64,000 nucleotides of DNA from Rhodanobacter sp. (GTDB lineage Bacteria; Pseudomonadota; Gammaproteobacteria; Xanthomonadales; Rhodanobacteraceae), in assembly GCA_004298045.1 (NCBI GenBank), contig SCRM01000005.1:62001-126000 (forward strand). The letters are read 5' to 3'. A model generated the notes under the pieces. That model did not search any database. It was not told the origin of the DNA and was given only the letters and a program-made list of their open reading frames with translations. A program made the position numbers and the translations under genes. Shown in pieces: positions 3,173-41,118 of this stretch; position 1 is the stretch's first letter, and every line of letters begins with the position of its first letter.

Positions 3173-5410
3173 TCAGCCCGTGGTGTCGATCCGCTCCACT
3201 CGGCGCAGCCCGCGCGGCAGTACGCCGCCGCGCCCGGCGCGGTTGCCGCCGTATTCCACCAGGTCGGCCCAGCGCAGGGTGAGCTTGCGCGCGCCGGCGT
3301 GCAGGGTGACTTCGCCCTTGCCTTCGGCGACCACGGCGATGCCCACCACGCGCTCGCCTTCGGCCAGCTGTTTCTTGGGAATCTCGATCAGCTTGTTGCC
3401 CTTGCCGCGATCGAGCTCGGGCAGCTCGGCCACCGAGAACATCAGCAGATGCCCCTCGCTGGTGACCACCACGATGCGGTCGCGTGCGGGGTCACTGCTG
3501 GTGCGCGGTGCCAGCACCTTGGCGCCGTCGCCGAGCGTAATGACCTGCTTGCCGGCCTTGTTGCGTCCGGTGAGCGCCTCGAAGCGGGTGACGAAGCCGT
3601 AGCCAAGGTCGGTGGCCAACACCAGTCGGGTGTCGTTGTCGCCGGCCGCCAGCGCATCGAACGTGGCGCCGCCCGGCGGCGTGAAGCGGCCGGTCAGCGG
3701 CTCGCCATTGCCGCGCGCAGAGGGCAGGGTGTGTGCCGACGTGGAGTAGCCGCGGCCGGTGGAGTCGATCACCGCGATCTGTTGCGTGGTGCGCGCGTTG
3801 ACCGCGGTGAGCAGGCCGTCACCCTCGCGGTAGCCGAGCGCTTCGGCGTCCACGTCGTGGCCCTTGGCGGCGCGAATCCAACCCATCTTCGACAGCACCA
3901 CGGTGACGGGTTCGCTCGCCACCAGCGCGCTTTCGTCCAGCGCGTGCGCAGCTTCGCGCGCGACCAGTGGCGAGCGACGCGGATCGCCGTATTTTTCTGC
4001 GTCCGCGCGCAGCTCGTCCTTGATCAGCCCCTTGAGCTTGGCCGGGGATTTCAGCAGCACGTTGATCCGCGCGCGCTCTTCCTCCAACTGTTCGCGCTCG
4101 GCGTCCAGCTTCATCTCTTCCAGCCGTGCGAGTTGGCGCAGCCGGGTTTCGAGGATGTAGTCGGTCTGCTCTTCGGAGAGCTTGAAGCGCGCCATCAGTA
4201 CCGGCTTGGGTTCCTCCTCGGTGCGGATGATGCGGATCACCTCGTCGAGGTTGAGGTAGGCGATGCGCAGGCCTTCCAGCAGGTGCAGCCGGCGCTCCAC
4301 TTTCTCCAGCCGATGGTTCAGCCGGTGGGTGACGGTGTCGGTGCGGAATTTCAACCATTCGATGAGGATCTTCTTGAGATCCTTCACCTGCGGACGGCCA
4401 TCCAGACCGATCATGTTGAGGTTGACGCGGAAGCTCTTTTCCAGGTCCGTGGTGGCGAACAGGTGCGGCATCAGCTCGTCGGCGTCGACGCGCGAGGAGC
4501 GCGGCACCAGCACCAGGCGGATCGGGTTTTCGTGATCGGATTCGTCGCGCAGGTCTTCGATCATCGGCAGCTTTTTCGCACGCATCTGCGCGGCGATCTG
4601 CTCGAGGATCTTCGACGGGCTGACCTGGTGCGGCAACGCGGTGATGACAATGTTGCCCTCTTCGCGGGTGTACACGGCGCGCGCGCGCACCGAGCCGACG
4701 CCGCTCTCGTACATGGCGAGCAGCTCGTTGCGCGGGGTGATGATCTCGGCCGCGGTGGGGTAATCCGGGCCCTGCACGTGTTCGCACAGCTGCGCCACGG
4801 TGGCGTTTGGCTCATCCAGCAGGCGGATGCAGGCGGTGGTGAGTTCGCGCAAGTTGTGCGGCGGGATGTCGGTGGCCATGCCCACGGCGATGCCCATCGA
4901 ACCATTCAGGAGCACGTGTGGCACGCGCGCCGGCAACCACGATGGCTCTTCCAGTGTGCCGTCGAAGTTGGGCACCCAGTCCACCGTGCCCTGGCCGAGC
5001 TCGCCCAGTAGCGCTTCCGCGATCGGGCTCAGCTTGGACTCGGTGTAGCGCATCGCGGCGAAGCTTTTGGGGTCGTCCGGCGAGCCGAAGTTGCCCTGGC
5101 CGTTCACCAGCGGGTAGCGGTAGGAGAACGGCTGCGCCATCAACACCATCGCTTCGTAACATGAGGTGTCGCCGTGCGGGTGGAACTTGCCGATCACGTC
5201 GCCGATGGTGCGCGCGGATTTTTTCGGCTTGGCGCTGGCGGCGAGGCCGAGCTCGCTCATCGCGTAGATGATGCGTCGCTGCACCGGCTTCAGGCCGTCG
5301 CCGACGAACGGCAGGGCGCGGTCGAGCACCACGTACATCGAGTAGTCGAGATAGGCCCGCTCCACGTATTCCTTGAGCGGGATTTGTTCGCAATTGGCCT
5401 GCAGATTCAT
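3173..5410 (-). CDS. parC: DNA topoisomerase IV subunit A
   Basis: 745 residues, full length for ParC. With ParE (not in this window) it decatenates daughter chromosomes. The breakage-reunion domain starts [18 protein letters not shown]. The catalytic tyrosine is Tyr122 in AAMRYTES. The quinolone-resistance region is at 77-88, [12 protein letters not shown], with Thr82 at the position equivalent to E. coli Ser80 and Glu86 at the Glu84 position. The C-terminal domain is a beta-pinwheel with degenerate repeats, and no GyrA-box (QRRGGKG) is seen, which favours ParC over GyrA. The gene is upstream of the exported-protein gene and just downstream of the GumN/TraB gene, on the same strand. Confidence 0.97.
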
Positions 5411-5494
5411 GCTTGGTGTCGCGCCGCGTTGCCCGTAACCGGCCGATGATGCCAGCTTGCGCCGGGGCGCAACAGCTTGACGCGGCGGGCGCGG

Positions 5495-6361
5495 CTACTC
5501 GCGCTGGGCGCGGATACCGCGCTTTTCGAGCTGCGCCTGCACGCTGTCCGGGCCGGCAAGATGCGCCGCGCCGACCGCCACGAACACGGTGCCGGGCGTA
5601 TCCAGCAGATGCGCGATGCGCGCGGCCCAGGTGGCGTTGCGGGTGACCAGCAGACGCTGGTAAAGCGCGGGCTGGCCTTCGCGCAGCTCGGTGTTTTCCA
5701 GCTGCGCAATGGTGTCGGTGTCGCCGGCAAGCCAGGCTGCCAACAGCTTGCGCACGTCCATGCCGGCATGGTCGCGGTCGCGCAGCGTGGCGCGCAGAAA
5801 CGCCAGCTGCTGCGCGGTGGGCATGTCTGCGAGGTAGCGGATCTGCTCCTCCGCCGTTTCCAGCCCACGCACCGGTTTGCCGGCAGCCTGCATCTGCGCG
5901 CGCAGTTGCCGATCCACGCCCAGGGCCGGGTCGAAGCCGGCCTTGAGCAGCGGGGTGACGGTGAGCGTCAACGCCGCCAGCCACGGGCGCATCAGGTTCA
6001 CCGCCGGCATGCCGCCGGGCACCTGCGCGAGGCGCACCGCATGTTCGAGCCGCCCGCGGTCGAACGGCGGCAGCGTGCTGGACAGGGACTGGGTGGTGTC
6101 CAGCCCGTAGCGCAGCACCAGCGCCGCCATGTTCGCCGCGTTGTCGTCGGTGATCTCCACGTACAACGCATCGCTTTTGGCCAGCGCTGCGTCCAGTGCG
6201 GGGAACCGCCATGCGGTGCCTGCCGGCAGCACGTGGATGGTGCCGAACAGGTACACGGTGGTGGCGCCCTGCCGCACTACCCACAACGCCGGGTGCGCGA
6301 GCGCGACCAGCGGGCCGCACAGCAACAGTGCGAGGAGCAGGCGGGCCAGGCGGTGCCGCAT
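5495..6361 (-). CDS. TraB/GumN family exported protein
   Basis: A 288-residue protein with a signal peptide (MRHRLARLLLALLL, cleavage near VALA). It carries TraB/GumN-family hallmarks: LFGTIHVLPAG near the N-terminus (GxxH motif), a central EIT segment, and VFVAVGAAHLAGPDSV near the C-terminus. The family resembles the Tiki/TraB metalloprotease fold; in Xanthomonas, GumN lies at the end of the xanthan cluster, but these stand-alone copies have no settled role. The start at 6361 was chosen because it opens the signal peptide and lies 7 bp after the cfa stop; a start 14 codons upstream would overlap cfa. It is probably the last gene of the crcB-DUF190-cfa transcript. Confidence 0.85.
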   Translation of the reverse strand: MRHRLARLLLALLLCGPLVALAHPALWVVRQGATTVYLFGTIHVLPAGTAWRFPALDAALAKSDALYVEITDDNAANMAALVLRYGLDTTQSLSSTLPPFDRGRLEHAVRLAQVPGGMPAVNLMRPWLAALTLTVTPLLKAGFDPALGVDRQLRAQMQAAGKPVRGLETAEEQIRYLADMPTAQQLAFLRATLRDRDHAGMDVRKLLAAWLAGDTDTIAQLENTELREGQPALYQRLLVTRNATWAARIAHLLDTPGTVFVAVGAAHLAGPDSVQAQLEKRGIRAQRE

Positions 6362-28499: not shown

Positions 28500-29051
28500 A
28501 TGGCGGCCTTGGTTCATCCACCGGAGCACGCCGTGCGCGGCCAGATCATCCTTTCGCATGGCTCGGGCTCCGGTCCGGATGCGGTCAAGACCAGCGCGCT
28601 GGCGGCGCGCGCCGAGGCACTCGGCTGGCGCACGCAGCGGCCGGATTTCCGCGTCCACGACGCGCACGGCTACGCGGCTGCCGTCGCGCCGCGCGTGGCG
28701 CAGCTCGTTACGCTGATCGCCGCCTGCGACACCCCGCCGGTGCTGGTGGGGTCCAGCATGGGGGCGTTCGCCTCGGCGCTGGCTTCGGTCGACGCGCCCG
28801 TGGCCGCCCTGTTCCTGATGGCGACGCCGCCGATGATCCCCGGCGCGGAGCGTGCGTTCGACGTACGCGCCGGCGTGCCGGCGGTGCTGGTGCATGGCTG
28901 GCGCGACGAGTTGTGCCCGGTAGCGGCGGTGCAGGCGTTCGCGGCGGCGCGCCATCTGCCGCTGCTGCTGGTCGACGACGACCACCGGCTGGCCGGAAGT
29001 CTGGACATGATCACCGCGCAGTTCGTCGCGTTCCTGGGCCGCCTCGCATGA
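28500..29051 (+). CDS. Small alpha/beta-hydrolase (YqiA/dienelactone-hydrolase-like)
   Basis: A 183-residue minimal alpha/beta-hydrolase. Oxyanion-hole region IILSHGSGSGPD, nucleophile GSSMGAF (Ser), and a C-terminal VDDDHRLAGS with the likely catalytic His; VLVHGWRDELCP supplies the Asp region. No signal peptide. Esterase substrate unknown. It overlaps rlmKL by four bases (ATGA), so the two are co-translated, as is seen in some Xanthomonadales. Confidence 0.82.
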   Translation: MAALVHPPEHAVRGQIILSHGSGSGPDAVKTSALAARAEALGWRTQRPDFRVHDAHGYAAAVAPRVAQLVTLIAACDTPPVLVGSSMGAFASALASVDAPVAALFLMATPPMIPGAERAFDVRAGVPAVLVHGWRDELCPVAAVQAFAAARHLPLLLVDDDHRLAGSLDMITAQFVAFLGRLA

Positions 29052-31234
29052 GCCAGTGGTTCGCCAGTTGCCCCAAGGGGCTGGAATACCTGCTGCGCGA
29101 CGAGCTGGCCGCGCTGGGCGCGCAGGGCGTGCACGAGGCGCTGGCCGGCGTGCATTTCGAGGGGCCGCTGGAAACCGCCTACCGTGCCTGTTTGTGGTCG
29201 CGCCTCGCGAGCCGCGTGCTGCTGCCGCTGGCGGAGTTCGACGCGGCGGACGATGAGGCCCTGTACGCCGGCGTCGGTGCCATCGACTGGTCGGCGCACC
29301 TTGCGGCGCACGCCACGCTGGCGGTGGATGCGCACACCGCGCAAAGCCAGCTCACGCACAGCCAGTTCATCGCGCAGCGGGTGAAGGACGCCGTGGTCGA
29401 CCAGTTCCGCCAGCGCGTCGGCACGCGCCCGGACGTGGACACCGACGAGCCCGACGTGCGCCTGAATCTGTATCTGAAGCGTAATCGCGCCACGCTCTCG
29501 CTTGACCTTGCCGGCACGCCGTTGCACCGCCGCGGCTGGCGCAAGCAGCAGGGCGAGGCGCCGCTCAAGGAGAATCTTGCCGCCGCGATTCTCCTGCGCG
29601 CGCGCTGGCCGGAAATCTACGCCGCCGGCGGTGCCGTGCTCGATCCGATGTGCGGTTCCGGCACGCTGCTGATCGAGGCCGCGCTGATGGCGGCCGATGC
29701 GGCGCCGGGTTTGCACCGCGATTACTACGGCTTTCTCGGTTGGCAGCAGCACGACGTGGCGCTGTGGCAGCACGTGCTGGACGCGGCAAGGCAGCGTGCG
29801 GAAGCCGGCCTGAAAACCTTGCGCGCGTGCTTTTTCGGCAGCGACCTCGACCCGCGCATGGTGCAGGTCGCCAAGCGGAACGCGCAGGACGCCGGCGTCG
29901 CCGGGTTCTTCACGCTGGAAAAGCGCGATGCCGCGCTGATCACGCCGCCGCCGGGCAGCGCCACCGGGCTGGTCGTCACCAACCCGCCGTATGGCGAACG
30001 CCTGGGCGAGCACGCGCAGATGCCGGCGCTGTACCACGCGCTGGGCGACCGCCTGCGCACGCAGTTCCGCGGCTGGCAGTTCGCCGTGCTGGCCGGCGAC
30101 GCCGAGCTGGGCCGCGCCATGCGTCTGCATGCCGAGAAAAAGTACGCGCTCTACAACGGCGCGCTCGAAGTGCAGCTGCTGGTGGGCGCGATCCGCGGCG
30201 AGGACGTTGCGCCGCGCGAACCCAGGCCGCTTTCCGCCGGCGCGCAGATGCTGCGCAACCGGCTGGAGAAAGACCTGAAGCGCCTGCACAAGCGCCTTGT
30301 GCGCGAAGGCATCCACTGCTGGCGTGCCTACGACCAGGATCTTCCCGAATACGCCGCGGCGATCGACGTCTATGGCAGCGAGGGCGGCGAACCGTGGCTG
30401 CACGTGCAGGAATACCGCGCGCCGGCCGAGGTGCCGGTGGCCACCGCGCAGCAGCGCCTGCGCGAGATCGTGCGCGTGGCGGGCGAGCTCTTCGGCGTGC
30501 CGCGCGAACGCATTGCGGTGAAGACCCGCGAGCGCGGCAAGGGTGGCGCCAAATACGGCCGCTTCGACCAGCGCGGCGAATTCATCGAAGTGGATGAGGG
30601 CGGGCTGCGCTTTCTCGTCAACCTCGTCGATTACCTGGATACCGGCCTGTTTCTCGATCACCGGCTGGTGCGCGCGAAGCTGCGCGAGCTGGCGCGCGGT
30701 CAGCGCTTCCTGAACCTCTTTGCGTACACCGCTACGGCCAGCGTGTACGCCGCGGCTGGCGGCGCGCGCGACACGGTGAGCGTGGATCTGTCGGCGACGT
30801 ACCTGGATTGGGCTTCGCGCAATCTTGCGCTGAACGACTTCATCGGCGTGCACCACCGGCTGGTGCAGTCCGACGCACTGGCTTTCCTGCGCAGCGACCA
30901 CGCGCACTACGGCGTGATCTACGTCGACCCACCGACGTTTTCCAACTCCAAGCGCGCCGAGGATTTCGACGTGCAGCGTGATCACGTGGCGCTGCTCACG
31001 GCCTGCGCCGAGCGCCTGAACGACGACGGCGTGATCGTGTTTTCCAACAATTTCCGGCGCTTCAAGCTGGATGCGGAAGCGCTGGCCGAAACCTTCGCCA
31101 TCGAGGACTGGAGCGCGCCCAGCATCCCGTTCGATTTCGCGCGCAACCCCGGCATTCACGGCTGCTGGCTGTTGCGCAAAAAAGCGGCTGAAAGCGCGCC
31201 GAATCCATGGCGTGACGCACGTCCCAAAATCTGA
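29048..31234 (+). CDS. rlmL: Bifunctional 23S rRNA methyltransferase RlmKL (m2G2445 and m7G2069)
   Basis: 728 residues with both methyltransferase halves of the fused RlmKL. The N-terminal THUMP domain (FASCPKGLEYLLRDEL) precedes the RlmL half (m2G2445): LDPMCGSGTLLIEAALMA around 199-208 and TNPPYGERLGE near 312. The RlmK half (m7G2069) follows with FLNLFAYTATASVYAA and YVDPPTFSNSK around 628-636. It modifies domain V of 23S rRNA. The start overlaps the upstream hydrolase stop by four bases. Length matches family (about 700-730). Confidence 0.96.
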   Translation: MSQWFASCPKGLEYLLRDELAALGAQGVHEALAGVHFEGPLETAYRACLWSRLASRVLLPLAEFDAADDEALYAGVGAIDWSAHLAAHATLAVDAHTAQSQLTHSQFIAQRVKDAVVDQFRQRVGTRPDVDTDEPDVRLNLYLKRNRATLSLDLAGTPLHRRGWRKQQGEAPLKENLAAAILLRARWPEIYAAGGAVLDPMCGSGTLLIEAALMAADAAPGLHRDYYGFLGWQQHDVALWQHVLDAARQRAEAGLKTLRACFFGSDLDPRMVQVAKRNAQDAGVAGFFTLEKRDAALITPPPGSATGLVVTNPPYGERLGEHAQMPALYHALGDRLRTQFRGWQFAVLAGDAELGRAMRLHAEKKYALYNGALEVQLLVGAIRGEDVAPREPRPLSAGAQMLRNRLEKDLKRLHKRLVREGIHCWRAYDQDLPEYAAAIDVYGSEGGEPWLHVQEYRAPAEVPVATAQQRLREIVRVAGELFGVPRERIAVKTRERGKGGAKYGRFDQRGEFIEVDEGGLRFLVNLVDYLDTGLFLDHRLVRAKLRELARGQRFLNLFAYTATASVYAAAGGARDTVSVDLSATYLDWASRNLALNDFIGVHHRLVQSDALAFLRSDHAHYGVIYVDPPTFSNSKRAEDFDVQRDHVALLTACAERLNDDGVIVFSNNFRRFKLDAEALAETFAIEDWSAPSIPFDFARNPGIHGCWLLRKKAAESAPNPWRDARPKI

Positions 31235-31721: not shown

Positions 31722-31755
31722 GAGGAGCCCGGCCATGCCGGGCTCCTCTTTGTTT
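31722..31755 (+). terminator. Intrinsic terminator after the Gly-rich gene
   Basis: GAGGAGCCCGGC-CAT-GCCGGGCTCCTC is a 12-bp perfect stem with a 3-base loop, followed by TTTGTTT. It sits between the convergent exported-protein gene and DUF6491-like gene. Confidence 0.93.
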
Positions 31756-32215
31756 ACGGCTTTTCGAGGTCACGGGGCGGCAACCCTGCCGCGCTGCCGC
31801 TGCGGCGTGCCTTGGCGCTGAGCCGGTCGAACTGCGCTCGGTCGATCTGGCGCACGGACTGGATGGCGCACGGCGGCTGGTTGGGTGAACTCACGGTTTC
31901 GCCCACCTCGCCGCAGATGCTGAACGGCGCAACGGCCTTGCCGGCCGGGCTGGTGTGGAAGCGCAGCGTCGGCGGGCCATAGCTGAGCCGCTGGCATTGA
32001 GCGGCGAGCTTCACCAGGTAACGGTCGGGACCGGTGCGCACCGTAAGCGTGCGCGCATCGACCACGTGCCACTCGTTGATGCGGTCGGTGCGCAGGCATT
32101 GCGATACCGGGCGCAGCGGGTGATAGGCAGCATGCGATGCCTTCGTCTGTGCGTTGGCGCCGGCAGCCAGCGTCAGCGCCAATACACTCAAACCGGCAAC
32201 CATCAACGGCTTCAT
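31754..32215 (-). CDS. DUF6491-like exported protein
   Basis: A 153-residue protein with a signal peptide (MKPLMVAGLSVLALTLAAGANA). The mature domain contains two or three cysteines (SQCLRTDRINEWHVVDART, AAQCQRL, FSICGEVGE) and VRTGPDRYLVKLA, the pattern of the DUF6491 family, which is frequent in Xanthomonadales and of unknown function; a disulfide is plausible. It is divergent from the borosin-type operon (201 bp) and ends at the plus-strand terminator. Confidence 0.72.
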   Translation of the reverse strand: MKPLMVAGLSVLALTLAAGANAQTKASHAAYHPLRPVSQCLRTDRINEWHVVDARTLTVRTGPDRYLVKLAAQCQRLSYGPPTLRFHTSPAGKAVAPFSICGEVGETVSSPNQPPCAIQSVRQIDRAQFDRLSAKARRSGSAAGLPPRDLEKP

Positions 32216-32416: not shown

Positions 32417-33235
32417 ATGACGGATGCATCACGGTGCCACGGGCGCCTCGCCTGCGTGGGGTTGGGCATGACGCTCGGTTCGCACCTGACGCCGCTGGCG
32501 CGCAGCCATATCGCGCAGGCCGACGTGGTGTTTGCCGCCCTGTCCGACGCCGTTGTCGAGGAGTGGCTGAAGCGCCTGCGCCCGGATGTGCGCAGCCTGC
32601 AGTCGGGCTATGCCGAAGGCAAACCGCTCATGCGCACCTACCGCGAATGGGGGGACCTGATGCTGGACGAGGTACGTGCCGGCCGGCGCGTGTGCGGCGT
32701 GTTCTACGGCCACCCCGGCGTCTTTGCCTGGTCACCGCACCAGGCGATTGCGCAGGCGCGCGCCGAAGGCTACCCGGCGTACATGGAGCCGGACATTTCC
32801 GCCGAGGATTGTCTCTACGCCGATCTCGGCATCGACCCCGGCAGCCGTGGCTGCCAGCACTTCGAGGCCAGCCAGCTCCTGTATTGCGAGCGGCGCATTG
32901 ACTCCGCCGGTTACCTCGTGCTGTGGCAGGTGGGCGTGGTCGGCAACCGCTCGGTGGGACGCTTCGACCACGGTTCGGCGTACCGCGCACTGCTGGTGGA
33001 ACGGCTGCTGGCCGATTACCCGGCCGAGCACGAGGTGATCGTCTACCGCGGCGCCACCTTGCCGATCGAGGAGCCGCGCATCCGCCGCCTGCCGCTGCGT
33101 GGACTGGCCACCGTGGCCTTGACCGCGGAGGACACCGTGGTAGTGCCGCCGACAACGGACTTGCAGCCCAATCGTGCGATGCTTGAGCGCCTGCAGGCGC
33201 TGGATGCGGCGGTGCGGGCGCCAGCGGCGGCGTGA
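32417..33235 (+). CDS. Borosin-type peptide alpha-N-methyltransferase (tetrapyrrole-methylase fold)
   Basis: A 272-residue SAM-dependent enzyme of the PF00590 tetrapyrrole-methylase fold. Features seen: GLGMTLGSHLTPLARSHI near the N-terminus, FYGHPGVF at 96-103, PDISAEDCLYADLGIDPG at 125-142 and QHFEASQLLY at 148-156. These blocks match backbone N-methyltransferases of borosin RiPPs (fungal OphMA and the bacterial split enzyme SonM) better than cobalamin or sirohaem enzymes. Tyr65 and Tyr75 fall in the GYAEGKPLMRTY segment equivalent to the catalytic loop. No precursor is fused to it, so it should act in trans on the next gene's product. Start: GGGGAG is 6 bases before ATG at 32417. Confidence 0.82.
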   Translation: MTDASRCHGRLACVGLGMTLGSHLTPLARSHIAQADVVFAALSDAVVEEWLKRLRPDVRSLQSGYAEGKPLMRTYREWGDLMLDEVRAGRRVCGVFYGHPGVFAWSPHQAIAQARAEGYPAYMEPDISAEDCLYADLGIDPGSRGCQHFEASQLLYCERRIDSAGYLVLWQVGVVGNRSVGRFDHGSAYRALLVERLLADYPAEHEVIVYRGATLPIEEPRIRRLPLRGLATVALTAEDTVVVPPTTDLQPNRAMLERLQALDAAVRAPAAA

Positions 33236-33267
33236 TTGGGGTGGGCAACAAACGACAGGGGATCGGT

Positions 33268-33579
33268 ATGAGCCACACCATCGACTGGCTGGAAACCATC
33301 GGCAGCGACGCGTCGCTGCGTTGCGCCACCGCTACCGAGCTGCAAGCCGTGCTCGAACGCGCACACGCCAGCGCCGAGCTGATCGCGGCGGTAGCCACCG
33401 GCAACGGCGCGCCGCTGCGGGTGAAGCTGGGCATACGGCGTGCGGTGCATGCGCCGCAGACCCAATCTCCGGGCTTGGGCGACGGCGACAAGAAACGTGC
33501 CCCCGCGCCGTCGCCCGCGCCACCTGTACCGCCCGCGCCGCCAAGGCCGCTGCCGCCGGATCGCCCCGACCACGCGTGA
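33268..33579 (+). CDS. Probable split-borosin precursor with helical leader and Pro-rich tail
   Basis: A 103-residue protein with no signal peptide. Residues 1-55 (MSHTIDWLETIGSDASLR, then ATELQAVLERAHASAELIAAV) are predicted helical and look like the borosin-binding domain of split borosin precursors. A middle segment (RRAVHAPQTQSPG) and an acidic-basic linker lead into a tail with about 16 prolines (SPAPPVPPAPPRPLPPD). Proline nitrogens cannot be methylated further, so the methylated core may be the middle segment rather than the end. GGGGAT lies 6 bases before the ATG. It follows the methyltransferase by 32 bp and overlaps the GGDEF gene (GTGA), so all three form an operon. The precursor role is inferred. 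Confidence 0.65.
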   Translation: MSHTIDWLETIGSDASLRCATATELQAVLERAHASAELIAAVATGNGAPLRVKLGIRRAVHAPQTQSPGLGDGDKKRAPAPSPAPPVPPAPPRPLPPDRPDHA

Positions 33580-35375
33580 CGGGTCGTGACGGCGTGGAGC
33601 TGACCCGCAAATCGCGATGCCTGATAGCGTGGCTGCTGCTGATTGCTGGCGCCGCGTGGCAGGGGGGCGCAGCGGTCGAATCGCCATCGCCATCGACCGA
33701 TGCCAGCGCGATGCTGGAGCGTGTCCGCGCCTTGCAAACGACGGATCACGCCGAGTCGCTGCGGGTGCTGGCCCAGTTGAACGCGGAAGAGGCGCGGTTG
33801 ACGCCGGCCGAGCGCTGGTCTCTGCGTTATGCGAATGGCTGGGAGGCCATGTACCAGAGTCGCTATGCCACCTCCGAAGCGCTGTTCAAGGACGTGATTG
33901 CGCATTCCGGTGACACGCTGCTGGTTGATCGCGCCTCGGCGTTGTTGATGTCCCAGTTCGGACTCACCCGACGCTACGTCGAAGCCTTCCAGTTGGCCAA
34001 CGAACTCACCACCCGTTTGCCGCGGATCGTCGATGCCGACGTGCGTTCCGTGGTGTTGATGAACCTGTCGCAGACATCGGGGCTGGCGGGCCAAACCAGC
34101 ATTAGCCTCGGTTACGCGCACATGGCGCTGGAGGAGGTGCCGCGCGGTGGCAGCGCGTGTCACCCCGCGGCGTTTCTCGTCGAGGCACTCTACAACGGTA
34201 AACAGCTCAAGCCGGACAGTCCCGAGTTGCGGCAGGCATTCGATGCCTGCCCGGCGGCGGAGCAGCCGGTGTACTACGTCAATCTGCAGCTCACGCTGGC
34301 CGATCTTCTGTTGCACGGGGGGCAGCCGCGCGAGGCGCTCGCGATCATGGATCGCATCGAGCCCATGCTGCACGCTACCGGCTATGCGCCGTACCGGCTC
34401 ACGGTGCAGGCGAATCGGGCGCTGGCCCTGGCCGCGCTCGACCAGGATGCGGCGGCACACAAGCTTGCGTTGGACCTCATTGCGGCACACCCGGAAGAGA
34501 TGTTCGGCACCTGGCTCAAGGATGTGTACCAGCTGCTTTATCGCATCGAAAAAAAGCAGGGTGATGCCGCGGGCGCGCTGGGCTATTACGAGAAGTTTGC
34601 CGCGCTCGACAAGGCTTATCTGGACGACGTGAACGCGCGCGCGGTGGCGTACGAAACCGTGCAGCAGCAGGTGCTATCGCAAAGGTTGGAAACTGCGCAG
34701 CTTGCCCAGCAAAACACCACGTTGCGCATGCAGCGCGCGCTGGATGCGAAAAAGGCCGAGACCGACCGCCTGTACGTATTGCTGCTGCTTGCCGTGCTGG
34801 CGTTCGGCACGGTGGCGATGGTTCGCCTGAAGCGCTCGCAATTGCAGTTCAAGCGGTTGTCGCGGCTGGATGGCCTGACCAACCTGCTCAACCGTCAGCA
34901 TTTCGTGGCCGAGGCCGAGCAGGCCCTGCGCGAACTTGAACGTCAGCAGGTGATGGGGTGCCTGGTGTTCATCGACCTCGACTACTTCAAGCGCATCAAC
35001 GACACCTATGGCCACGCGGCCGGCGACGAAGTGCTGCGCTATGCGGTGGAAGCCGGGCGCACGCAACTGCGGGCGGAGGACTTGTTCGGTCGCCTTGGCG
35101 GCGAGGAATTCGGCATCCTGCTGGTGGGTTGCACGCGCGAACAGGGCAGCACCATCGCCGACCGCATCCGCGGCGCGATCGAAGTGACCGGCGTCGATTT
35201 CGACGGCGTCACCATCCCGGTGTCGGCCAGTGCCGGCCTCGCGTTTACCGACACCAGCGGCTACGACCTGCAGCAGCTGTTTCGCGCCGCGGACCATGCG
35301 CTGTACAAGGCCAAGCGCGGCGGCCGCAACCGGGTGTTCGTCGAGGCGGTGGATCCGGGCTTGTCGGGCCTCTGA
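33576..35375 (+). CDS. TPR-containing membrane diguanylate cyclase (GGDEF)
   Basis: 599 residues. A signal sequence (IAWLLLIAGAAWQGGAAV) precedes a long alpha-helical, TPR-like periplasmic region (about 40-370), a membrane helix (about 399-417, LYVLLLLAVLAFGTVAMV) and a C-terminal GGDEF domain with active-site GGEEF at 508-512 and substrate residues in FIDLDYFKRINDTYGH. It should make c-di-GMP. No RxxD inhibitory site was evident. The GTG at 33576 overlaps the precursor stop (GTGA), implying translational coupling; a second GTG lies 6 codons later. The operon context suggests the cyclase is linked to the modified peptide. Confidence 0.88.
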   Translation: MTGRDGVELTRKSRCLIAWLLLIAGAAWQGGAAVESPSPSTDASAMLERVRALQTTDHAESLRVLAQLNAEEARLTPAERWSLRYANGWEAMYQSRYATSEALFKDVIAHSGDTLLVDRASALLMSQFGLTRRYVEAFQLANELTTRLPRIVDADVRSVVLMNLSQTSGLAGQTSISLGYAHMALEEVPRGGSACHPAAFLVEALYNGKQLKPDSPELRQAFDACPAAEQPVYYVNLQLTLADLLLHGGQPREALAIMDRIEPMLHATGYAPYRLTVQANRALALAALDQDAAAHKLALDLIAAHPEEMFGTWLKDVYQLLYRIEKKQGDAAGALGYYEKFAALDKAYLDDVNARAVAYETVQQQVLSQRLETAQLAQQNTTLRMQRALDAKKAETDRLYVLLLLAVLAFGTVAMVRLKRSQLQFKRLSRLDGLTNLLNRQHFVAEAEQALRELERQQVMGCLVFIDLDYFKRINDTYGHAAGDEVLRYAVEAGRTQLRAEDLFGRLGGEEFGILLVGCTREQGSTIADRIRGAIEVTGVDFDGVTIPVSASAGLAFTDTSGYDLQQLFRAADHALYKAKRGGRNRVFVEAVDPGLSGL

Positions 35376-35546: not shown

Positions 35547-36971
35547 GTGCAGACGATGGTTTCATTTGTCTGCTTGCCCATTGTGCGTGTGCCGCCGGCT
35601 GCGGCGGTTTGCCATGCGTGTCGCGCGGTGCTGGTTGCCGGGCTGATGGCGTTGTTGGCCGCATGCGCCAATTACCGCCCGCTGCCGCTCGGCGATGGCC
35701 ACTACGCGACGCGCGCCGCGCAACTGCAGGCGCCGGCGAGTGCGATGCCGGTGCCGGAGCTGGCGGCGCGTCGCTTCGACCCGGCCGATGGCCTGGACGT
35801 CACCGAAGTCGCGATGCTGGCGGTGGTGAACAGCCCGGCGCTCAAGCTGCAACGCGACGCGCTGGGCATTGCCCAGGCGCAGGCGTTTGCCGCTGGTCTG
35901 CTGCCCGACCCGCAACTCGGCTTCGGCGCAGACTTTCCGCAGAACTCGGGCGGCGGCCTCATCAAGGCCTACAACCTCGGCCTCAGCGAGGACGTCAGCG
36001 CGTTGCTGCTGCGTTCCTCGCGCAAGCGCGTGGCGAACGCGCAGACCGAGCAGGTGAACCTGGATTTGTTGTGGGCCGAGTGGCAGACCATCGCGCAGGC
36101 ACGGCTGCTGTTCGACCAGGTGCAGAGCCTGCGCGCGCAGCAGATCGAACTCGACGCCGAGCAGCGCGCGCTGGCGCCGGTGGACCAGTCGGTGCAGGCG
36201 GCGCTTGCCGCCGGCAACCTCAACTACGACAGCGCCAGCGCAGGACTCAACGCCATGGCCGACGTGCGCAAGCGCGTGGCCGACAATGCCGTGGCCGTGC
36301 ACCAGGCCGAAAGCGACCTGCGCCAGTTGCTGGGCCTTGCGCCCACGGCGCCGCTGGATCTGGTGGGCGCGCCGTACGAGGTCGATCCCGATGCCGCGCA
36401 ACTTGCGGCCGCGCTGGCCGACCTGCCACGGCGGCGTCCGGACCTGCTGGCGCTGCAGGCGGGCTACCGGGCGCAGGAAGCACAGCTGCGCGGCGCGATC
36501 CTCGCCCAGTTCCCCGCGATCACGCTGGGCGTCACCCACGCGCGCGACACCAGCAATATCACCACCAACGGCTTCAGCGTCGGCATCACCCTGCCGCTGT
36601 TCAACCGCAACCGCGGCAACATCGCGATCGAGACGGCCACCCGTCAGCAGCTGAAGGACGACTACGCCGCGCGCCTGCTGGCCACCCGCAGCGACATGCA
36701 GCGCCTCGCCGCCGATCTGCGGACGCTGGGCGCCCAGCAGACGGCGCAGGTCGCGCATGCAAAGCAGCTCGATGCGGCGCGTGCGGCCGCGGAGCAGGCT
36801 TGGCGGAATGGCCTGCTGGACTGGCCGACCTATCTCGTGATCCGCGCCAACGCGCTGACCGCCGATTCCGACCTGATCGCGCTGAGGCAGGCGCGCTCCA
36901 CTGCCGCGATCGCGCTGGAAGCTTTGCTCGGTCGCACCGACTTCGTCCACCCACGGATGTCCAAACGATGA
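35547..36971 (+). CDS. Outer-membrane efflux lipoprotein (CusC/TolC family)
   Basis: A TolC-family outer-membrane channel with a lipobox (LLAAC in the first 40 residues). Two OEP domain repeats are visible as the alpha-helical barrel segments (for example QRDALGIAQAQAFAAGLLPDP and VANAQTEQVNLDLLWAEW). It makes the exit duct of the tripartite pump with the next two genes. Start choice is weak: the first ATG at 35547 gives 25 unusual residues before the hydrophobic segment, and GTG codons at 35584 or 35628 would give a more standard lipoprotein signal. It overlaps the adaptor gene by 4 bp. Confidence 0.9.
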   Translation: MQTMVSFVCLPIVRVPPAAAVCHACRAVLVAGLMALLAACANYRPLPLGDGHYATRAAQLQAPASAMPVPELAARRFDPADGLDVTEVAMLAVVNSPALKLQRDALGIAQAQAFAAGLLPDPQLGFGADFPQNSGGGLIKAYNLGLSEDVSALLLRSSRKRVANAQTEQVNLDLLWAEWQTIAQARLLFDQVQSLRAQQIELDAEQRALAPVDQSVQAALAAGNLNYDSASAGLNAMADVRKRVADNAVAVHQAESDLRQLLGLAPTAPLDLVGAPYEVDPDAAQLAAALADLPRRRPDLLALQAGYRAQEAQLRGAILAQFPAITLGVTHARDTSNITTNGFSVGITLPLFNRNRGNIAIETATRQQLKDDYAARLLATRSDMQRLAADLRTLGAQQTAQVAHAKQLDAARAAAEQAWRNGLLDWPTYLVIRANALTADSDLIALRQARSTAAIALEALLGRTDFVHPRMSKR

Positions 36972-38059
36972 AACCAGGCTTGTTCGCGCGCGGGGCCGCG
37001 CTGGCCATGGCGACCCTGCTGCTGGCCGCCTGCGGCAGCGGCGGCGAGGACGACGGCAGCACCGCCGACGCCAATGGCGTGGCGCTGGTCACCACGGCGA
37101 TGCCGGTGCAGCGCAGCTTCCATGACGACGTGGCGGCCTGGGGCAGCGCGGCGGCCGATCCGCACCACGCGCGGGCAATCAGCCTCGCGCACGGCGGACA
37201 GGTGATCGCGCTGCAGGTCAGCGCGGGGCAGACCGTGAAGCGTGGCCAGCCACTGCTTCGCGTCGCACCCGATCCGGCGGCGCGCAGCGCGTACCAGCAG
37301 GCGCAGAGCGCCGCCACGCTCGCCACCGGCGAGCTGCAGCGGGTCGAGCAAATGGCGGCGCAACATTTGGCCACGCAATCGCAGCTCGCCACCGCGCGCA
37401 AGGCGCTGGCCGATGCGCAGGCGACGCTGGCGGCGCAGCAGGCGCTCGGCGGTGGCACGACTGAAGAGAGCGTCACCGCGCCGGACGACGGCGTGGTCAC
37501 CGTGGTGTCGGTGCAGCTCGGCGACCGCTTTGCCGCGAACGCGCCACTGCTCGCCTTCATGCCTGCGCATGCACTGATCGCCGCGCTCGGCGTGCAACCC
37601 GATGCCGGCGCGCAGCTGCGCACCGGCATGCCGGTGTCTGTGCACGGCGTGTACGGCGACGCCAAGGTCTACGCCGGCAAGCTGGTCATGGCGGGGCGTG
37701 CGATCGATCCGCAAACCCGCCTGCTGCCGGTACAGGCCGATCTGCCGGCCGCGGCCGGTGCGGCACTGGTCGCCGGCAGTCCGCTGGAGGCAAGCATCCA
37801 GAGTGACGCCTACACTGCGTGGGCGGTGCCGCGCGCCGCCGTATTGCACGACGGGCAAGGTGATTACCTGTACCAGGTCAACCATGGCAAGGCGCATCGC
37901 GTGAACGTCGAGTTGCGCCATCCCGCCGGCGACACCGTGGGGGTGGAAGGCAAGCTCGACGCGCAGCTTCCGGTGATCGTGCAGGGCGCCTATGAGGTGG
38001 ATGAGGGCGCGGCCGTGCGCCAAGGGAAGACCGGTGCCGCCAGCGAGCCCAAGCCGTGA
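36968..38059 (+). CDS. RND efflux periplasmic adaptor (membrane fusion protein)
   Basis: A 363-residue HlyD/MFP lipoprotein (lipobox LLAAC). Lipoyl-like segment HGGQVIALQVSAGQTVKRGQP, a helical hairpin (QQAQSAATLATGELQRVEQM...), the second lipoyl half (APDDGVVTVVSVQLGDRF) and a beta-barrel domain are in order. It links the RND pump to the outer-membrane channel. Overlaps both neighbours (ATGA at 36968, GTGA at 38056). The short hairpin suggests it belongs to the CusB/CzcB-like or small MFP subfamily; substrate not predictable. Confidence 0.92.
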   Translation: MKPGLFARGAALAMATLLLAACGSGGEDDGSTADANGVALVTTAMPVQRSFHDDVAAWGSAAADPHHARAISLAHGGQVIALQVSAGQTVKRGQPLLRVAPDPAARSAYQQAQSAATLATGELQRVEQMAAQHLATQSQLATARKALADAQATLAAQQALGGGTTEESVTAPDDGVVTVVSVQLGDRFAANAPLLAFMPAHALIAALGVQPDAGAQLRTGMPVSVHGVYGDAKVYAGKLVMAGRAIDPQTRLLPVQADLPAAAGAALVAGSPLEASIQSDAYTAWAVPRAAVLHDGQGDYLYQVNHGKAHRVNVELRHPAGDTVGVEGKLDAQLPVIVQGAYEVDEGAAVRQGKTGAASEPKP

Positions 38060-41000
38060 GTGCAATACCGCTGACGATCACCCAGTGGATGCACGGCCAC
38101 CGGCGTTCACTGCTGTTTCTCGCCCTCATCCTTGCCATCGGCGGCATCGTCAGCGCGTTCAGCCTGCCGGTGTCGCTGTTCCCCAACGTCTCCTTTCCGC
38201 GCGTGCGGGTGTCGCTGGACGCCGGGGACCAGCCCGCCGACCAGATGGTGGTGAGCGTCACCCGGCCGGTGGAGGAGGCGATTCGCCGTGTGCGCGGCGT
38301 GCGCGAGGTGCGCTCCACCACCAGCCGCGGCAGCGCCGAGATCAACGTCGGCTTCGACTGGGGCGCAGACATGGGGCGCGCGCTGCTCGACGTGAATGCC
38401 GAGATCGGCGAGGTGCTGCCGCGCCTGCCGCCCGGCGTCGACGTGGGAGCGATCCGGCTCGATCCCACGGTGTTTCCGATCCTCGCCTACAGCCTGAGCT
38501 CCGACCGGCTCACGCCTGCGCAGCTGCATGACATTGCCGAGTTCCAGCTACGCCCACTGTTGTCCGGTGTCACCGGCGTGGCCCAGGTGGACGTGCAGGG
38601 CGGCGACGTGGCCGAGTTCCACGTGGACGTGGACGCGGCGAAGCTGCGCGCGCAGGGCCTCACGCTCGCCGACATCAGCCGTGCGGTGACCAGTGCCGCC
38701 ACCATCCAGGCCATGGGCCGCCTGCAGGACCACTACAAGCTCTACCTGCTGCTGGCGAACAACCAGCCGGCCACCGCGGCGGCGCTGGGCGACATCGTGC
38801 TGCGCGCTGGCGCGCATGGCGTGCTGCATCTCAGGGACGTGGCCACGGTGGGCATGAGCCACGTACCGCAATGGGTGCGCACCACTGCCGACGGCCATGA
38901 CGCGGTGCTGGTGCAGGTGTACCAGCAGCCCAGCGGCAACAGCGTGCAGATCGCGCGCGACGTGAAGCAGCGCCTCGCCAGTTACAAAAAGCAGGCACCA
39001 AAGGGCCTGCACATCGCCAACTGGTACGACCAGACCCAGCTGGTGCTGGGCGCCGCGGGCAGCGTGCGCGACGCGATCCTGATCGGCATCGTGCTGGCGG
39101 GACTGGTGCTGTTCGCGTTCCTGCGCAACGCGCGGGTGATCCTGGTGTCGATGATCGTGGTGCCGGCCACGCTGGCGATCACGGTGCTGCTGCTCACCGC
39201 CTTGCACATGAGTTTCAACATGATGACGCTCGGCGGCATGGCGGCCGCAGTCGGACTCCTGATCGACGACGTGATCGTGATGCTTGAGCACATCATGCGG
39301 CGCCTGCGCGATGGTTCCGGCCCGGTGCGCGAGCGCATTGCCGGCGCGGCCTGGGAATTCACCCGCCCGCTGACCGGCTCCAGCGCGGCCACAGTGGTGA
39401 TCTTCCTGCCCCTGGCGTTCCTGACCGGCGTCACCGGCGCCTTCTTCAAGGCGCTGTCGCTCACCATGGCCAGCGCGCTGGTGATCTCCTACCTGTTGAC
39501 CTGGGTGGTGGTGCCGCTGCTCGCCGAGCGGCTGCTTGACGAGCGCCAGGCTGAAGAGCGTCCACCCGGGCGCTTTTCGCAAGGGTTGCTGGCCGCCTAC
39601 GAGAGCACGCTGGGGCGCGTGCTCGAACGCCCGGCGCTGGTGCTCATCGGCGTGCTGCCGTTGCTGCTGGTAGGCGTGCTGGCCTATCGCCAGGTGGGCA
39701 GCGGCTTCATGCCGAAGATGGACGAGGGCGGCTTCACGCTGGACTACCGCTCGCTGCCGGGCACGTCGCTGAACGAGACCGATCGCCTGCTGCAGCAGCT
39801 CGAACGGGTCATCCGCGCCAATCCTTACGTGGACACCTATTCGCGGCGCACCGGACTGCAGCTGGGCGGCGGCCTCACCGAGGCGAACACCGGCGACATC
39901 TTCGTGCGCCTGAAGAACGGCTCGCGGCCGCCCACCAGCACGGTGATGGAGCAGATCCGCCAGCAGATCGTGGCCACGGTGCCGGGGCTGGACGTGGATG
40001 TCTCGCAGCTGATGGAGGACCTGATCGGCGACCTCACCGAGGTGCCACAGCCGATCGAGATCAAGCTGTACAGCGACAACGAGGCGCAACTGACGGCGAC
40101 TGCGAAGAAGGTGGCTGCGGCGATTGCCAAGGTCAACGGCGTGGCCGAGGTGCGCGACGGCATCAACCCCGCCGGCGATGCGCTGGACGTGCGCGTCGAC
40201 CCGGTGAAGGCCGGCCTCTACGGGCTCGACCCGGTAGCGGTCGCGCAGCAGGTTTCCGACGCGGTGGCCGGCAGCGTGGCGGCGCAGCTGCCGCAGGGGC
40301 CGAAGATGATCGGTGTGCGCGTGTGGCTGCCGCCGCACGCGCGGGCGCAGTTGGAGCAGCTGCAGGCGCTGCCGATCCGCGCCGCCGACGGCCGCGTGGT
40401 GCCGCTGTCCGAACTGGCCACGATCCAGGCGGTGCAGGGCCAGCCGCAGATCAGCCGCGTTAACCTCAAGCGCATGGTGGCGGTGACCGCGCGCATCGTT
40501 GGCCGCGACCTCGGCTCCACCGTGGCCGACGTGAAGCAGGTGCTGGCCCAGCCCGGCCTGTTGCCGCCGGGCATGTACCACGAGCTGGGTGGCCTGTACG
40601 CGCAACAGCAGATCGCCTTCCACGACCTTTCCATCGTGATGCTGGCGGCGATCGCGCTGGTGTTCACCCTGCTGCTGTTTCTCTACGAGAGCTTCCGTGT
40701 GGCGCTGGCGATCATGGCGGCACCGCTGCTCGCGATGGCGGCCGTGTTCATCGGCCTGTGGGTGACCGGCATCGAGCTCAACATCTCGGCGATGATGGGC
40801 ATGACGATGATCGTGGGCATCGTCACCGAACTGGCGATCTTCTATTTCACCGAAGCGCAGGATGCGGTGGCGCGCATGCCGCTGGATGAGGCGCTGCGCT
40901 ACGCCGGTCATCACCGCATGCGACCGATCCTGATGTCCACCATCGCGGCGATCCTCACCCTGCTGCCACTGGCGCTGGCGATCGGCCAGGGTTCGCAGAT

Positions 41001-41118
41001 GCAGCAGCCGCTGGCGGTGGCGATCATTGCCGGCATGCTGGCCGCGGTGCCGCTGGTGCTGCTGGTGATGCCGGCGCTGTACGCATGGATGCAGCGCGCA
41101 TACCCGGCGCGGCCTTGA
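38056..41118 (+). CDS. RND family efflux pump inner-membrane permease
   Basis: A 1020-residue RND permease with 12 membrane helices and two large periplasmic loops. The start QWMHGHRRSLLFLALILAIGG is the first helix; the proton-relay segment in helix 4 is GLLIDDVIVMLEH (about 401-413), with paired aspartates; MPKMDEGGFTLDYRSLPG lies in the second porter region, as in CzcA/HME-like pumps. Start is GTG at 38056, overlapping the adaptor stop. A heavy-metal or small-molecule substrate is possible; no metal-binding loops or regulator accompany it. Confidence 0.93.
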   Translation: MSAIPLTITQWMHGHRRSLLFLALILAIGGIVSAFSLPVSLFPNVSFPRVRVSLDAGDQPADQMVVSVTRPVEEAIRRVRGVREVRSTTSRGSAEINVGFDWGADMGRALLDVNAEIGEVLPRLPPGVDVGAIRLDPTVFPILAYSLSSDRLTPAQLHDIAEFQLRPLLSGVTGVAQVDVQGGDVAEFHVDVDAAKLRAQGLTLADISRAVTSAATIQAMGRLQDHYKLYLLLANNQPATAAALGDIVLRAGAHGVLHLRDVATVGMSHVPQWVRTTADGHDAVLVQVYQQPSGNSVQIARDVKQRLASYKKQAPKGLHIANWYDQTQLVLGAAGSVRDAILIGIVLAGLVLFAFLRNARVILVSMIVVPATLAITVLLLTALHMSFNMMTLGGMAAAVGLLIDDVIVMLEHIMRRLRDGSGPVRERIAGAAWEFTRPLTGSSAATVVIFLPLAFLTGVTGAFFKALSLTMASALVISYLLTWVVVPLLAERLLDERQAEERPPGRFSQGLLAAYESTLGRVLERPALVLIGVLPLLLVGVLAYRQVGSGFMPKMDEGGFTLDYRSLPGTSLNETDRLLQQLERVIRANPYVDTYSRRTGLQLGGGLTEANTGDIFVRLKNGSRPPTSTVMEQIRQQIVATVPGLDVDVSQLMEDLIGDLTEVPQPIEIKLYSDNEAQLTATAKKVAAAIAKVNGVAEVRDGINPAGDALDVRVDPVKAGLYGLDPVAVAQQVSDAVAGSVAAQLPQGPKMIGVRVWLPPHARAQLEQLQALPIRAADGRVVPLSELATIQAVQGQPQISRVNLKRMVAVTARIVGRDLGSTVADVKQVLAQPGLLPPGMYHELGGLYAQQQIAFHDLSIVMLAAIALVFTLLLFLYESFRVALAIMAAPLLAMAAVFIGLWVTGIELNISAMMGMTMIVGIVTELAIFYFTEAQDAVARMPLDEALRYAGHHRMRPILMSTIAAILTLLPLALAIGQGSQMQQPLAVAIIAGMLAAVPLVLLVMPALYAWMQRAYPARP

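Follow-up and report, generated by a model that had tools for sequence, protein, structure and literature searches.

A split-borosin gene module with its own TPR-GGDEF diguanylate cyclase in Rhodanobacter and related bacteria

In a stretch of 64,000 nucleotides from Rhodanobacter sp. (GenBank assembly GCA_004298045.1, contig SCRM01000005.1, positions 62,001 to 126,000), referred to here as the window, three genes follow each other on the forward strand. They encode a borosin-type alpha-N-methyltransferase (MT), a precursor peptide and a diguanylate cyclase with a tetratricopeptide repeat (TPR) region and a GGDEF domain. An earlier note on this DNA had read them as a split-borosin operon coupled to the synthesis of cyclic di-GMP (c-di-GMP). 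The comparison with other genomes shows that a split borosin with its own diguanylate cyclase is a real, conserved and specific module. The features of the window copy are the following, in window coordinates.

32417..33235, + strand: SonM-type borosin alpha-N-methyltransferase homologue, 272 amino acids (Pfam TP_methylase, 6e-21)
32627..32629, + strand: leucine codon (MT residue 71) where SonM has Arg67 (alignment of 137 MTs)
33268..33579, + strand: precursor peptide gene, 103 amino acids, ATG to TGA, 32 nt after the MT stop codon, in the aligned precursor family
33268..33435, + strand: precursor leader, residues 1-56, resembling a borosin-binding domain (helices in the predicted model)
33436..33576, + strand: putative core with a tail rich in Pro, net charge +3 (from the sequence)
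33576..35375, + strand: TPR-GGDEF diguanylate cyclase, 599 amino acids, start GTG 33576 (Pfam GGDEF, 4.5e-42; model mean pLDDT 88.9)
33609..33662, + strand: predicted N-terminal helix, residues 12-29, of signal or membrane type (model helix, hydropathy)
33699..34565, + strand: sensor built as a TPR-like alpha-solenoid, predicted to be periplasmic, about residues 42-330 (model; invariant Cys195 and Cys225)
34770..34823, + strand: predicted second membrane helix, about residues 399-416 (hydrophobic stretch ahead of the GGDEF domain)
34866..35333, + strand: GGDEF domain, residues 431-586 (Pfam)
35070..35081, + strand: RAED, an RxxD motif (sequence)
35097..35111, + strand: GGEEF active-site motif (sequence)

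Linkage of methyltransferase, precursor and cyclase

MT loci were gathered by MT similarity alone, and start codons were set by rule. The locus was present in 58 of the 99 genomes searched. To these, 80 named loci were added, the best 80 of 111, mostly from Rhodanobacter and then from Dyella, Frateuria, Fulvimonas and Luteibacter; one of them bears the name of another phylum, and the titles of several say no more than metagenome-assembled genome. A class-wide search gave MT matches in 9 of 369 genomes, 7 of them outside the order. From 158 MT open reading frame (ORF) matches, 137 loci remained once identical MTs had been merged: the first two sets account for 130 of them, and the other 7 lie outside the order. 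The precursor-cyclase pairs numbered 131; the second pair of L134, which has a cyclase fragment, was dropped from the counts of GC content at third codon positions (GC3), motifs, spacing and charge, leaving 130.

At 120 of the 130 loci a GGDEF gene started no more than 3 kb downstream of the MT, and in all but one of these (119/120) a precursor lay between the two. The precursor was recognised by its profile at 128 of the 130 loci. The simple order MT, precursor, cyclase was found at 80 of the 137 loci, and there were variants with additional precursors or cyclases. The GGDEF gene abutted the MT on the upstream side at five loci (L062, L063, L064, L066 and L067) and was located further upstream at L069. 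No GGDEF was found in the fetched stretch at four of the 130 loci. Two of these, L076 and L135, have a contig end downstream, and in L065 the contig ends 85 nt upstream of the MT. The fourth, L154 from Dyella acidiphila, is the one clear exception, with an MT, two precursors and no cyclase within 5.4 kb downstream. For comparison with the 120 of 130 MT loci, a simple calculation based on 22 GGDEF-type matches in the 3.26-Mb genome to which the window belongs gives a same-strand GGDEF no more than 2-3 kb downstream of about 1% of genes by chance. The neighbourhood survey proposed in the earlier note has revealed a coupling much stronger than that note could know. At several loci, including L039, L073, L124, L159, L164 and L171, precursor and cyclase have been duplicated jointly. 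At L066 (2351-4864, + strand) a natural TPR-GGDEF-MT fusion of 838 residues carries both the GGDEF and the TP_methylase domain, and a precursor is encoded just upstream.

The pairing of precursor and cyclase was also analysed in 98 genomes, with the precursor alignment at E <= 0.001 and the TPR sensor alone at E <= 1e-20. Within 5 kb of an MT, 63 of 64 precursors had a TPR sensor less than 700 nt downstream. Away from an MT, the same was observed for 11 of 12, giving 74 of 76 overall, and both precursors without a downstream sensor sit near contig ends. A precursor gene paired with a sensor gene in this way is as expected of a polymorphic peptide-receptor module. The DNA was read for six of the 11 MT-remote pairs (L194-L199) and showed a precursor followed by a TPR-GGDEF gene in a stretch without an MT; L200, another fetched locus, contains a fragment resembling an MT and is possibly a disrupted MT locus. 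Across the 98 genomes, MT and sensor were both present in 56, the MT only in 2, the sensor only in 1 and neither in 39 (Fisher p 1e-23, kinship ignored). These results support precursor and cyclase as the constant pair, with an MT that may lie elsewhere in the genome. Contig C209 of genome G093, a genome without an MT or precursor match, has a TPR sensor match at 4605-5612 (+ strand), an orphan cyclase.

When the genes around the 137 loci were clustered, the cyclase family was recovered at 124 of them, the MT at 120 and the precursor at 73, and the next family, found on both strands, at 19. Genes were called by a simple GC-frame rule, which may overlook some; the low precursor count is due to this. 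In the window, an RND-type efflux operon (35628-41118, + strand) encoding an outer-membrane efflux protein, a HlyD-like adaptor and an AcrB-family pump is located directly downstream of the cyclase; the families that recur at other MT loci do not include this pump. On the upstream side are a small DUF6491 protein (31754-32215, - strand) and an RlmL-type rRNA methyltransferase gene (29048-31234, + strand). Several congeners likewise have RlmL no more than about 9 kb from the MT, so the module occupies one inherited site in the genus. At L046, L047, L048, L060, L061, L168, L169, L171 and L176, an ORF that by eye resembles a GNAT acetyltransferase stands between MT and precursor; it is perhaps a second modifying enzyme.

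The three gene products

The MT reading frame extends from ATG 32417 to TGA 33235, and GTG 32414 is a possible alternative start. In a phmmer search of PDB sequences the MT matched the SonM entries with E values of about 7e-67 and dbOphM/OphMA with 4e-44. All 25 matches at E <= 0.1 were borosin MTs, and none was a cobalamin or porphyrin enzyme. By sequence, the MT of the split-borosin module belongs to the OphMA/SonM family, with 45% identity to SonM over the aligned positions. The borosin-type assignment of the earlier note, and its distinction from cobalamin and porphyrin enzymes, are borne out by this similarity search rather than by a tree.

Nine SonM residues were compared. The window MT retains Tyr58, Tyr71, Tyr93, Phe99, Glu146, Trp166 and Gln167; Glu173 is replaced by Asn, as it is in 20 of the 137 MTs. 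At the position of Arg67, however, 135 of the 137 aligned MTs have Arg and one has Ser, and only the window copy has Leu. The set Tyr58, Arg67, Tyr71 and Tyr93, taken as a mark of a competent enzyme, is therefore retained in three residues and broken at the fourth. According to the part of PMC8429565 covered here, the efficiency of the SonM mutant R67K is about 100-fold down and R67A has trace activity only. Because of the Leu at this position, the window MT may be weak or inactive. The dN/dS of the gene is raised relative to congeners, which could point to decay. RlmL, a control that could be used in 7 of 9 genomes, showed the same rise, so the raised value was rejected as a sign of decay. 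The amino-acid change rate on the window lineage was 0.25 for the MT and 0.26 for RlmL. The finding of Leu in place of Arg67 holds independently of this test. By descent and architecture the window copy is a borosin member; as a maker of methylated peptide it appears doubtful. At another locus, L187, the MT homologue (ORF about 4020-4944, + strand) is without residues matching SonM Tyr58, Arg67, Tyr71 and Tyr93, and neither a precursor nor a GGDEF gene was found near it. It is possibly a family member with another function.

The precursor sequence gave nothing in Pfam at E <= 1, and searched alone against the PDB it gave chance-level matches only. The likeness to SonA came instead from a fold search. 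An AlphaFold2 model computed from 40 aligned precursors (mean pLDDT 74.8, pTM 0.40) has five helices within residues 2-53, namely 2-13, 15-18, 22-31, 36-44 and 48-53, followed by an unstructured tail. With Foldseek at E <= 10, all seven PDB matches were SonA chains (identity 26-31%), although with E values of 0.84-5.4 none was significant by E-value alone. The SonA leader is a five-helix bundle, as described in the part of PMC8429565 covered. The model supports a SonA-type precursor with a borosin-binding-domain leader, in line with the helical leader that the earlier note had placed 32 bp downstream of the MT. The tail of the window precursor, at +3, is the most basic of 130, compared with a median of -7 in its relatives, whose acidic tail has been lost here. 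Proline runs like those of its Pro-rich tail were seen in the tails of the two precursors of L039 (5092-5358 and 7356-7586, + strand).

For the cyclase, an in-frame GTG at 33594, which would leave a gap of 14 nt to the precursor, is possibly the real start. The GTGA overlap of the two genes noticed earlier is a possible reading in the window, but it is not a conserved feature: with rule-chosen starts, an overlap of 4 occurred in 4 of 130 pairs and a gap <= 0 in 11 of 130, and the commonest gap was 11 nt. The predicted structure has a helix at residues 12-29, a TPR-like solenoid from residue 42, a single long helix at 331-429 and the GGDEF domain from about 431. In the 131 pairs, a hydrophobic stretch ahead of the GGDEF domain was found in 129 and an N-terminal one, at the same cut-off, in 72, with none between. 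Two Cys residues of the solenoid are invariant across 45 sequences, which would fit a periplasmic disulfide. Of 130 pairs, 129 carry GGEEF, and RxxD, which we take to be the inhibitory-site motif, occurs in 108 of 129. The GG[DE]EF and RxxD motifs and the GGDEF domain support an active-type cyclase, for which c-di-GMP synthesis is predicted. The periplasmic TPR region and cyclase described in the earlier note are thus supported, as predictions, by model, hydropathy and motif. Foldseek gave 1466 matches at E <= 10; the best 50 of the 1466 were all GGDEF-containing structures and uninformative on the TPR part. RRNPP receptors are cytoplasmic TPR proteins with a DNA-binding or phosphatase output. 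The sensor modelled here is predicted to be periplasmic and its output is a GGDEF domain, which sets it apart from that class.

Divergence of the sensor

The divergence of the genes was compared in 10 Rhodanobacter-like genomes at fourfold sites whose context is conserved. The differences amounted to 0.235 for RlmL (7 genomes), 0.258 for the MT, 0.274 for the precursor, 0.279 for the linker and 0.303 for the GGDEF domain, and to 0.475 for the TPR region. Corrected for saturation by arithmetic, the divergence was about 0.34 for the MT, 0.44 for the GGDEF domain and 0.79 for the TPR region. In the same genomes GC3 was 0.70 for precursor and TPR region versus 0.87-0.89 elsewhere, and among the 130 pairs GC3 of the TPR region was lower than that of the GGDEF domain in 98. 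For a control, a TPR-GGDEF gene of the same genus without a precursor was measured in 10 genomes, 9 of them common to the test set. Its sensor differed by 0.276 and its GGDEF domain by 0.235, with GC3 of 0.89 and 0.90. The raised sensor divergence is therefore not common to the control cyclase, which is a single one.

A proposed peptide ligand for the cyclase and its alternatives

We propose that the peptide is a private ligand of the periplasmic TPR domain of the cyclase, and that the split-borosin module has a membrane diguanylate cyclase as its output. The MT of the family would N-methylate the segment after the leader, and the peptide would then be trimmed and would reach the periplasm via machinery encoded elsewhere. 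There it would bind the TPR solenoid of the neighbouring gene's cyclase and alter c-di-GMP synthesis through the long membrane-crossing helix. This ligand-receptor reading, the most economical one, is supported by the homology of MT and precursor, the linkage at 120 of 130 loci, the MT-remote pairs, the co-occurrence across genomes and the L066 fusion. It is further supported because no other family is conserved at the loci, and by the topology of the sensor with its invariant Cys residues, the GGEEF motif and the divergence of the sensor relative to the control. Judged from these predictions, its chances are close to even. An extension, in which a pheromone system of ribosomal peptides feeds directly into c-di-GMP with a private SonA-type ligand for each cyclase, one MT serving several pairs in trans and a sensor diversifying between species in the manner of polymorphic quorum sensing, is more tentative and somewhat less probable.

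Several observations weigh against the ligand-receptor reading. A transporter, exporter or protease/peptidase conserved beside the module was not seen among the 137 loci with the GC-frame gene calls, and only 5 of 130 precursors have an export-like hydrophobic stretch above the hydropathy cut-off, so that a signal-peptide-like segment is uncommon. Outside the order, a GGDEF gene was found at one of the seven MT loci (L189). No recognised precursor lay directly upstream of 39 of 111 sensors, many of which are tandem copies by MT loci or belong to divergent clades. A second control cyclase, L216, was left unused because only 4 of 15 genomes had relatives of it, so the comparison has a single usable control. 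In 26 Dyella-group loci the contrast was small, with about 0.50 for the sensor against 0.42 for the MT and 0.41 for the GGDEF domain. The strong low-GC3 effect in the sensor of the congeners is absent from the window, where GC3 is 0.81 for the TPR region and 0.86 for the GGDEF domain. The window MT is possibly poorly active, and the local peptide would then perhaps be unmethylated. A correlation of core and TPR sensor distances, given GGDEF, leader and MT, was obtained for 127 of the 131 pairs (the second L134 pair, L055, L060 and L061 were left out), with a partial r of 0.41 and a permutation p of 0.001. It was rejected by its controls, leader versus sensor (0.47) and sensor versus GGDEF (0.45): the correlation is not specific because the sensor is the best ruler of relatedness.

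The two main rivals are intracellular control and a reversed direction of regulation. The precursor might act inside the cell, alone or in complex with the MT, on the cytoplasmic GGDEF domain or the juxtamembrane helix, with methylation as a switch, no export, and a TPR region that reads something else. The lack of a conserved exporter or protease and the scarcity of export-like stretches suit this explanation, as does L066, which joins GGDEF and MT on the expected cytoplasmic side. The greatest divergence, however, is in the periplasmic sensor and not in the GGDEF domain or linker, and core versus GGDEF distances gave a partial r of 0.03 after correction in a test that is itself confounded; we regard intracellular control as unlikely. 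Slightly less likely still is that the TPR region of the cyclase picks up a cue from the envelope or the environment and that c-di-GMP governs production, modification or release of a borosin with its target elsewhere. Gene order and fusion would suit either direction, and signal-dependent production would equally account for the co-inheritance, but precursor-cyclase pairs survive without an adjacent MT, and the two genes are duplicated jointly, as for a ligand and its receptor.

The window copy itself may be a crippled or re-purposed remnant whose MT has lost efficient methylation; the cyclase would then be controlled by the unmethylated precursor or by nothing at all. We consider this a real possibility, short of probable, and it is compatible with the ligand-receptor reading for the family. 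The Leu unique among 137 MTs and the extreme basic tail point to it. On the other side, the MT has changed at the rate of RlmL, the other compared residues are retained save Glu173, an Arg two residues on might compensate, and a single-base assembly error is possible. That the genes are merely co-inherited without a functional link is very improbable: additional TPR-GGDEF genes without a recognised precursor do occur beside MT loci, but the MT-remote pairs, the L066 fusion and the co-occurrence over 98 genomes argue for a link.

In polymorphic peptide signalling, as with agr and comQXPA, one operon encodes a modifying enzyme, a peptide and a membrane receptor, and the sensor of the receptor is variable. 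Here, in contrast, the receptor would be a diguanylate cyclase, the predicted modification is N-methylation of the backbone and the module includes no exporter gene. The order of signal or transmembrane helix, sensor, transmembrane helix and GGDEF domain with RxxD is common to membrane diguanylate cyclases with a periplasmic sensor; what differs is that this sensor subfamily tracks the borosin genes (56/2/1/39 in the 98 genomes). With the type IV split borosin SonM/SonA of Shewanella oneidensis the module shares a separate SonM-type MT and a precursor with a five-helix leader, as far as the part of PMC8429565 covered describes them. It differs in the TPR-GGDEF cyclase that follows, in the core region and, in the window, in the Leu at the R67 position.

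The earlier note had called the coupling uncharacterised. The borosin-GGDEF association is at least partly in print already, since GGDEF is listed among the borosin architectures in the legend of Figure 1 of a 2024 paper (PMC11395268). That legend does not tell a fusion from a neighbouring gene, and it mentions neither TPR sensors, MT-remote pairing nor a function. Our literature searches, in which the key borosin papers were only partly covered, found no paper joining borosins with diguanylate cyclase, c-di-GMP, tetratricopeptide or Rhodanobacter; the TPR sensor, the MT-remote pairing and the signalling hypothesis were likewise not found. A stated physiological role for bacterial split borosins was not met in the literature covered, and the pheromone reading, if true, would give them one. 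Since the precursor is rarely parted from its cyclase, it is a testable idea that N-methylation of the backbone turns the peptide into a stable signal for an enzyme of c-di-GMP synthesis. If this is true, the biosynthesis of ribosomally synthesised and post-translationally modified peptides would be joined to biofilm-type signalling, and the family would offer many natural peptide-sensor pairs in which specificity can be measured.

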